This document shows, piece by piece, positions 50,989 to 51,577 of a stretch of DNA of 59,758 nt (position 1 is the stretch's first letter; every line of letters starts with the position of its first letter). The stretch is from a virus: positions 1 through 59,758 of IMG/VR virus record IMGVR_UViG_3300033550_000005, one strand, 5' to 3'. The notes under the pieces are model-generated. The model saw only the letters and a program-made list of their open reading frames with translations. It had not been told where the DNA came from and ran no database searches. A program made the translations under genes and the position numbers.

Positions 50989-51128
50989 TTGCGGGGAACA
51001 TGTCGCTAGACGTTCAATGCTCGCGCTCTACCAACTGAGCTACGTCACCGGGATCCCCCAGCAACGGTTGGGCTCTAACCAACGACCTCAAGCTCCGGAA
51101 GAAGTATGCCTAACTGCCGCCACCGCAA
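50989..51128 (-). ncRNA. Y-RNA-like unit 1 with permuted tRNA domain
   Basis: A 140-base RNA unit closed by TTGCGG/CCGCAA. Inside: TGGCG, 11 bases, TACTTCT on the 5' side and TGTTCC on the 3' side, plus a middle helix GTTAG/CTAGC. The upper part folds into a tRNA in permuted order: anticodon-stem strand GCTTG (51093-51089), variable AGGTC, T arm GTTGG-TTAGAGC-CCAAC, acceptor strand CGTTGCT, linker GGGGGATCCC, acceptor strand GGTGACG (7 pairs), TA, D arm GCTC-AGTTGGTA-GAGC, and CGAGC pairing with GCTTG. No CCA and no free acceptor end. The T loop has A where tRNAs have C56. Architecture matches bacterial Y RNAs. Confidence 0.8.
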
Positions 51129-51130
51129 AA

Positions 51131-51232
51131 CTCTCACAAGGGAGACCCGACGCGCATCGCGGTCGGAGCAACCGGGAGGAGGAACCGTGACACCCAGAAA
51201 GGGGAACTGGTGTCGGGTCTCTCTTGTGAGAG
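51131..51232 (-). repeat. Long hairpin between RNA units 2 and 1
   Basis: CTCTCACAAG at 51232-51223 pairs with CTTGTGAGAG at 51140-51131, and GAGACCCGAC at 51221-51212 pairs with GTCGGGTCTC at 51151-51142, with one A-C mismatch between: 20 pairs in all. The inside holds two smaller hairpins (GACACCAG/CTGGGTGTC and CGGTTG/CGACCG). It ends three bases before the closing helix of unit 1. Such long duplexes are typical RNase III substrates. Confidence 0.85.
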
Positions 51233-51256
51233 CTCACTACAACTTCAAAATAAGGC

Positions 51257-51393
51257 GTGCACCGGGAACAGATCGGGCCAGCGACAAGGTGCTCTAACCA
51301 GCTGAGCTACCCGAGCCGAAACTCGAGGCTGGATTCGAACCAGCGACCACCCTCTTAGCAGGAGAAGTATCTGAACCTATCGCCACGGCGCAC
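51257..51393 (-). ncRNA. Y-RNA-like unit 2 with permuted tRNA domain
   Basis: A 137-base unit closed by the 8-pair helix GTGCGCCG/CGGTGCAC. It has the same frame as unit 1: TGGCG, 11 bases, TACTTCT, and TGTTCC before the closing helix. The tRNA-like part reads GAGGG (anticodon-stem strand), TGGTC, T arm GCTGG-TTCGAAT-CCAGC, acceptor strand CTCGAGT, a TTCG tetraloop, acceptor strand GCTCGGG (7 pairs, two G-T), TA, D arm GCTC-AGCTGGTTA-GAGC, A, CCTT. D and T loops are fully canonical (GG and TTCGAAT). The acceptor stem is capped by TTCG, so no aminoacylation is possible. Bacterial Y RNAs mimic tRNAs in this way. Confidence 0.82.
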
Positions 51394-51490
51394 TGTTTGA
51401 GACTTAGCAGCGGGACTCTTGCGTCGCTTGACACAGTCCGGAACTGTCGCGACCCCGACCTCACCCGCTTCACACCCTAAGTCTCAAACA
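51394..51490 (-). repeat. Long hairpin between RNA units 3 and 2
   Basis: TGTTTGAGACTTAG at 51490-51477 and CTAAGTCTCAAACA at 51407-51394 are perfect 14-base complements. The interior (51476-51408) includes the small hairpin ACAGT-TCCGG-ACTGT. The stem ends exactly one base before the closing helix of unit 2, so the two helices could stack or the duplex could direct cleavage at the unit's 5' end. Confidence 0.87.
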
Positions 51491-51510
51491 CTACGTCGTA
51501 CCGCACTACC

Positions 51511-51577
51511 TAGCGGGGAACAAAACGCAACGGGGAGATTTCACCAAAAGAAGTACCCGTTACAAACGCCACCGCTA
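51511..51577 (-). ncRNA. Short Y-RNA-like unit 3, no tRNA domain
   Basis: A 67-base unit closed by TAGCGG/CCGCTA (extendable by G-T pairs). It has the same frame as the other two: TGGCG, exactly 11 bases, TACTTCT on the 5' strand and TGTTCC on the 3' strand. The middle helix is longer (GTAACGGG with CCCGTTGC) and is capped by a pyrimidine-containing loop TACTTCTTTTGGTGAAATCTC in place of a tRNA-like domain. It thus resembles the simple stem-loop form of animal Y RNAs and could be a minimal Ro60 ligand. Confidence 0.65.

Follow-up and report, generated by a model that had tools for sequence, protein, structure and literature searches.

Three probable Y RNAs beside a phage Ro60 gene share a two-ended module that recurs at Ro60 loci of phages and bacteria

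It is established that Y RNAs are encoded near Ro60 in both bacteria and phages, as Chen et al. reportedly described in 2014, and the kind of RNA considered here is not new. In the case of the bacterial YrlA RNAs, Rsr is tethered by the basal stem and PNPase is bound by the tRNA-like domain (PMC8394870). In phages, putative Y RNAs of the Listeria phage CKA15 and of mycobacteriophages have been presented as noncoding RNAs upstream of an Rsr-like gene; in the portions of that account consulted here, the Y RNA assignment is a suggestion, no shared Ro60 module is described, and Chen et al. 2014 is cited for the mycobacteriophage RNAs (PMC12282133). Among animals, binding of vertebrate Ro60 needs both bulges together with the sequence of the lower stem (PMC4726728), and Y RNAs and sbRNAs share a bulged C, a GC-clamped upper stem of 9 bp and the sequence UUAUC where the loop opens (PMC4450293). 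According to a review, the bacterial Y RNAs are not homologous to the animal ones (PMC4726728).

We analyzed a stretch of viral DNA of 59,758 nucleotides (IMG/VR record IMGVR_UViG_3300033550_000005; hereafter the window), whose source is a tailed phage that encodes a terminase domain, a family A DNA polymerase and a thymidylate synthase. Three RNA units are followed, on the same strand, by a 256-aa ORF, an AAA ATPase and Ro60, the last of these 2.4 kb downstream of the RNAs. The features are as follows.

51508–51580, minus strand: unit 1, probable compact Y RNA without tRNA-like arms (62 bits with covariance model R1, of whose training set it is a member)
51571, minus strand: bulged U of unit 1
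51570–51569, minus strand: GG of unit 1
51564–51557 with 51533–51526, minus strand: helix P2 of unit 1
51555–51550, minus strand: UACUUC of unit 1
51518–51517, minus strand: CC of unit 1
51549–51571, minus strand: 5' arm of the module (TGGCG-N11-TACTTCT), unit 1
51517–51522, minus strand: 3' element TGTTCC, unit 1
51389–51495, minus strand: long hairpin with a 19-bp stem, between units 1 and 2
51257–51393, minus strand: unit 2, probable YrlA-type Y RNA with a tRNA-like domain (outer helix 8 bp, bulged U at 51385)
51363–51385, minus strand: 5' arm of the module, unit 2
51328–51344, minus strand: T arm of the tRNA-like domain of unit 2, before the D arm (permuted order)
51291–51307, minus strand: D arm, unit 2
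51265–51270, minus strand: 3' element TGTTCC, unit 2
51128–51235, minus strand: long hairpin between units 2 and 3, whose 24-25-bp stem exceeds that of every other hairpin found in the window
50989–51128, minus strand: unit 3, probable YrlA-type Y RNA with a tRNA-like domain (outer helix 6 bp, bulged U at 51122)
51100–51122, minus strand: 5' arm of the module, unit 3
51067–51083, minus strand: T arm, unit 3
51025–51040, minus strand: D arm, unit 3
50995–51000, minus strand: 3' element TGTTCC, unit 3
50187–50957, minus strand: ORF of 256 aa without known family, immediately 3' of unit 3
48672–50153, minus strand: AAA ATPase (Pfam AAA, 1e-15), common in unrelated phages
47068–48594, minus strand: phage Ro60 (TROVE-vWA) protein of 508 aa (Pfam TROVE, 7e-15; PHROG 850; family profile matching Ro60 structures)
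44273–45184, minus strand: NMT1-like ORF with a signal-peptide-like N-terminus (weak match, 2.5e-5, below the Pfam cut-off)

The initial annotation had pointed to an invariant TGGCG-N11-TACTTCT in all three units, always with 11 bases between its parts, and to TGTTCC directly before the closing helix. Both observations are exact at the positions listed; the 5' motif is found three times with 0 mismatches and never in 100 dinucleotide shuffles (mean 0.00, maximum 0). As had also been noted, the rest of the three sequences differs: they are unrelated outside the motif, while motif and pairing are kept. The bases after TGTTCC pair with those before TGGCG in an outer helix of 9, 8 and 6 bp in units 1, 2 and 3, respectively, so that a basal stem formed by the 5' and 3' ends, carrying the putative Ro60-binding module, is present in every unit. 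The 11 bases can be decoded as two loop nucleotides, one strand of an 8-bp helix and one further nucleotide, and the partner strand lies 7 nt before CC; the pairing of this helix is 8/8, 6/8 and 7/8. The folding-energy z-scores of the single units are unremarkable (-0.10, -1.14 and -0.96); energy alone would therefore miss these RNAs, and it is covariation that decided the matter. Around the units no terminator rises above chance, and a promoter search yields a single weak promoter-like site. The NMT1-like ORF, of a kind uncommon in phages, lies just downstream of the Ro60 region.

Several lines of evidence define the module. Its layout comprises a variable outer helix (P1), a bulged U, GG:CC, an internal loop CGNA / GYUUGUU, a helix of 8 bp whose sequence is free (P2), and UACUUC. 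We wrote this as a descriptor (P1, a bulged base, GG:CC, an 8-bp P2 directly before N-UACUUC, and P2' 6-8 nt before CC), and with at least 7 of 8 pairs in P2 and at least 4 in P1 it matches 250 times, compared with 3 matches in reversed or complemented DNA. Across 194 non-redundant viral units the 5' consensus is U(96%)-G-G-C/U-G-U/A-A(85%)-P2-N-U(99)A(98)C(100)U(98)U(100)C(96), and the 3' consensus is P2'-G(90)-Y-U/C-U(84)-G/A-U(92)-U(93)-C-C, the figures being percentages. N11 spacing is found in 163/194 of these units, as is a 3' gap of 7, and core lengths form two groups, of about 55 nt without and about 120 nt with tRNA-like arms. For covariation we took 42 units of compact length from a list made by sequence only (the 5' motif plus [GA][TA]TCC, with no pairing required). 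RNAalifold recovers the same helices from their alignment, with compensatory changes in 13/15 pairs. The named structure has 83.6% of its cells paired (59.1% when shuffled), and the covariation score is 0.639, as opposed to 0.202 for shuffled and 0.11-0.18 for slid alignments; in alignment A2 two tRNA-like rows take the T-loop as their 3' end owing to the choice of ATCC alone, which slightly weakens the statistics. GG:CC is constant in the 42 units except for one G:U, and P1 and P2 are free in sequence yet paired. Covariance model R1 was built from these 42 units, unit 1 included.

The window's units resemble YrlA in lying beside a Ro60 gene and in having a basal stem closed by the 5' and 3' ends. 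In units 2 and 3 the likeness extends to a tRNA-like domain with the T arm before the D arm; unit 1 has neither arm and is therefore a probable Y RNA but not a YrlA. The Rfam model of YrlA (RF02553) aligns from end to end with unit 2 (43.8 bits, E 3e-8) and in part with unit 3 (23.9 bits), both below its gathering score of 69 bits, and at that score Rfam gives no match on the window's RNAs. The same model detects RNAs in all 7 bacterial Ro60 genomes tested, never above the cut-off. Unlike the window's units, the Rfam alignment has AUGCUU in place of UACUUC, and it shows the bulged U-GG:CC / CGNA module incompletely. In the papers covered here, we found no description of the two-ended module with UACUUC, of a share of about one half for compact Y RNAs among viral units, or of arrays of eight.

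The protein encoded downstream of the RNAs has a TROVE domain above the Pfam cut-off and a weak vWA_Ro60 match (20 bits, cut-off 27.7). The profile of its phage family aligns with Ro60 structures through both the TROVE HEAT-repeat and the vWA domains; in the PDB it finds the TROVE proteins 9l5y/9kop (4e-49) and the Ro60 entries 9nen and 1yvp (1e-12 and 2e-11). H187 and K170 of animal Ro60 (1yvp numbering) are residues that we take to be needed for Y RNA binding. In a HMMER alignment, the His of LSHxKP corresponding to H187 is invariant in 22 phage Ro60s (H178 in the window's protein), and the position of K170 is nearly always Lys and is Arg in the window's protein. We considered the AAA ATPase as a partner of Ro60 and rejected it; it has homologs in many Escherichia, Klebsiella and Pseudomonas phages, and we therefore count it as a neighbor.

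The initial annotation proposed searching for the motif pair in other phages that encode Ro60, and took a lack of conservation in homologous loci as grounds for refutation. The motif withstands this test: many of the 43 viral loci found by the protein have it a short way upstream of Ro60, frequently more than once, and the module is conserved in dozens of viral Ro60 contigs, several named phages and 71/80 bacterial Ro60 loci (Bradyrhizobium, Acidobacteria and others), the last usually with 2-5 copies and spanning bacteria of several phyla. Compact Y RNAs make up about half of the 194 viral units. Module units lie on the strand of Ro60 in 227/230 viral and 162/164 bacterial cases, mostly upstream. 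A scan of 2.9 million viral contigs by the motif only retrieved mainly Ro60 loci. It gave 72 stretches, 51 of which pass the structure test; for these, Ro60 is within the DNA examined in 42, elsewhere in the same record in 3, and not seen in 6, which are mostly short fragments. In the 21 that fail the strict test Ro60 is present in 10 and absent in 11. These linkage counts include some contigs reached by both the protein and the motif scan. By profile, no Ro60 is found in the whole records of seven module-bearing contigs, L049 (33 kb), L107 (54 kb), L087, L105, L078, L094 and L056; viral records of this sort may be fragments or may belong to phages that use the Ro60 of their host.

Unit counts in named phages reach 8 in Caulobacter phage CcrColossus, 5 in Xanthomonas 10KY502B and 4 in Brevundimonas Kabachok, and R1 also matches Microcystis phage Mvi-JY20, Arthrobacter phage Atuin and crAss001; Deinococcus gobiensis has two units. 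The eight modules of CcrColossus are in tandem upstream of its TROVE gene (L201, 3769-4950), where 4173-4240 is annotated as tRNA-Gln and a 24-bp stem encloses one Y RNA unit. A Y RNA unit likewise lies under a tRNA-Thr annotation in Xanthomonas phage 10KY502B (L202, 4822-4889). Phabba was rejected as a source of Y RNA homologs: the similarity is a tRNA-like stretch inside a tRNA cluster, and the module scanner is negative. A third class of long units, with a core of about 145-156 nt, occurs in Acidobacteria and related loci (L121 at 5032, L130 at 5098, L134 at 940 and L144 at 4834). They have in common an inner element around GGGACGGAGGCGTAGCCTCGA-CACAAGGTTCC plus a CTGCCGGA stretch, and this looks like an effector domain of yet another kind, distinct from both the compact form and the usual tRNA mimic.

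Taken as a reading of sequence and genomic context, it is highly probable that the three units are Y RNAs of a ribonucleoprotein with the phage-encoded Ro60 and that the motif is their Ro60-binding module. The initial annotation had argued from the fixed spacing to a protein-binding site, most simply that of Ro60. The Ro60 assignment gains support from linkage and conservation, but the constant 11 is first of all the length of an 8-bp helix and does not by itself imply a protein. Rather, the case for Ro60 is supported by genomic linkage and by the invariant unpaired or bulged positions. The linkage could equally mark another co-encoded factor, but in the loci examined no other gene accompanies the module with the constancy of Ro60. 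The known vertebrate Ro60 site is most closely resembled by the half comprising the bulge, CGA and the internal loop. P1, the bulged U, GG:CC, the CGNA / GYUUGUU loop and P2 ending in UACUUC together make up an element whose geometry is fixed and whose two ends are conserved. In it, P2 would serve as a spacer for which length matters and sequence does not. By analogy with animal Y RNAs and their bulged-C helix, Ro60 would dock on the bulged helix and internal loop. UACUUC may be a second Ro60 contact or else a separate site. The variable part above P2 would set the job of the particle. In units 2 and 3 a nuclease or tRNA enzymes may be offered the tRNA-like domain, on the model of the Rsr-YrlA-PNPase machine, and unit 1 may occupy, gate or store Ro60 without a tRNA-like effector.

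It is quite possible, though we lean against it, that only the bulged-helix half is the Ro60 site and that UACUUC serves a second partner, for example a nuclease, or closes the fold of the effector domain. A full helix of free sequence separates the two, and in Arthrobacter phage Atuin, whose divergent Ro60 is 26% identical to that of the window, UUACUUC persists without the U-GG part; thus the two halves need not serve one protein. However, the distance between them is nearly constant, as the N11 counts show, which fits one rigid ligand, and compact units contain both halves despite having no effector domain. We consider it improbable that the module instead directs processing or stability, for instance by guiding a nuclease to Y RNA precursors, with Ro60 bound elsewhere. 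The units are in tandem and are separated in the window by long hairpins, possibly processing stems, so that processing of a common transcript is likely, but against such a signal, the bulge and internal loop are fixed where the outer helix is free in sequence, the module accompanies Ro60 in phages as well as in bacteria from several phyla, and the published Rsr site is this very basal stem (PMC8394870). That the three copies reflect nothing more than recent duplication and unconstrained shared ancestry would fit their tandem position at one place, but this has a negligible chance of being correct given that the units are otherwise unrelated with motif and pairing kept, that compensatory changes abound across the 42 units, and that the same module adjoins Ro60 in so many phages and bacteria.

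Returning to the Ro60-binding reading, the module also invites comparison with animal Y RNAs. Like vertebrate Y RNAs and sbRNAs it has a lower helix, a bulged pyrimidine followed by G-A, and a larger loop on the 3' strand; it also has a fixed upper stem (9 bp in the animal RNAs) and a motif at the loop entrance, UUAUC in animals and UACUUC here (PMC4450293, PMC4726728). The site of vertebrate Y RNAs and nematode sbRNAs differs in being without the extra bulged U and GG:CC. By plain sequence, the similarity of the window's units to animal Y RNAs is not significant and pairwise tests are weak, and homology on this ground is unconvincing. In a register test of the phage profile, only Y1 reaches significance (0.005 of 3000 shuffles; Y1 sequence from PMC4597359).

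Seven mutually related TROVE loci of haloarchaeal plasmids (L219-L225) have upstream candidates of the form P1-UCGAG/UCCAG-P2(8 bp)-UUNCUUC...P2'-P1', in which the P2 pairing was read by eye and P1 alone was non-significant in that search.

L219, 3337–3421 and 3666–3800: candidate archaeal Y RNAs, about 0.3-0.6 kb upstream of the TROVE gene
L220, 3412–3680: candidate archaeal Y RNAs, at a like distance upstream
L221–L225: candidate archaeal Y RNAs, likewise upstream

Some of these have a T-arm-like stretch, and R1 scores them weakly or not at all. Compared with Y4 over CGA-GGTAGTGGGTTA, one haloarchaeal unit beats all 2000 shuffles, and the other archaeal units give no such match. The unit reading CGA-GGUAGUGGG-UUAC is very close to what we take to be vertebrate Y4. 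We regard haloarchaeal Y RNAs with a similar core, together with the animal parallel, as a candidate lead. Tentatively, and with doubt, one might envisage a single ancestral Ro60-docking module (a bulged pyrimidine-G-A, a fixed 8-9-bp stem and UUAYUUC/UUAUC at the loop entrance) common to phage, bacterial, haloarchaeal and animal Y RNAs. If this were true, the UUAUC of animal Y RNAs and sbRNAs, regarded as a loop motif, would correspond to UUACUUC in the bacterial RNAs.

These findings provide a precise and searchable definition of a probable Ro60-docking element in phages and bacteria. It finds RNAs that fall below the cut-off of the public model, including arrays of up to eight and compact Y RNAs without a tRNA mimic, and a new model built from the module would detect many more RNAs than RF02553. 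The role of Y RNAs for phages becomes testable through swapping or deletion of the module, which may also offer a bridge between bacterial and animal Y RNAs, held to be unrelated in a review (PMC4726728).
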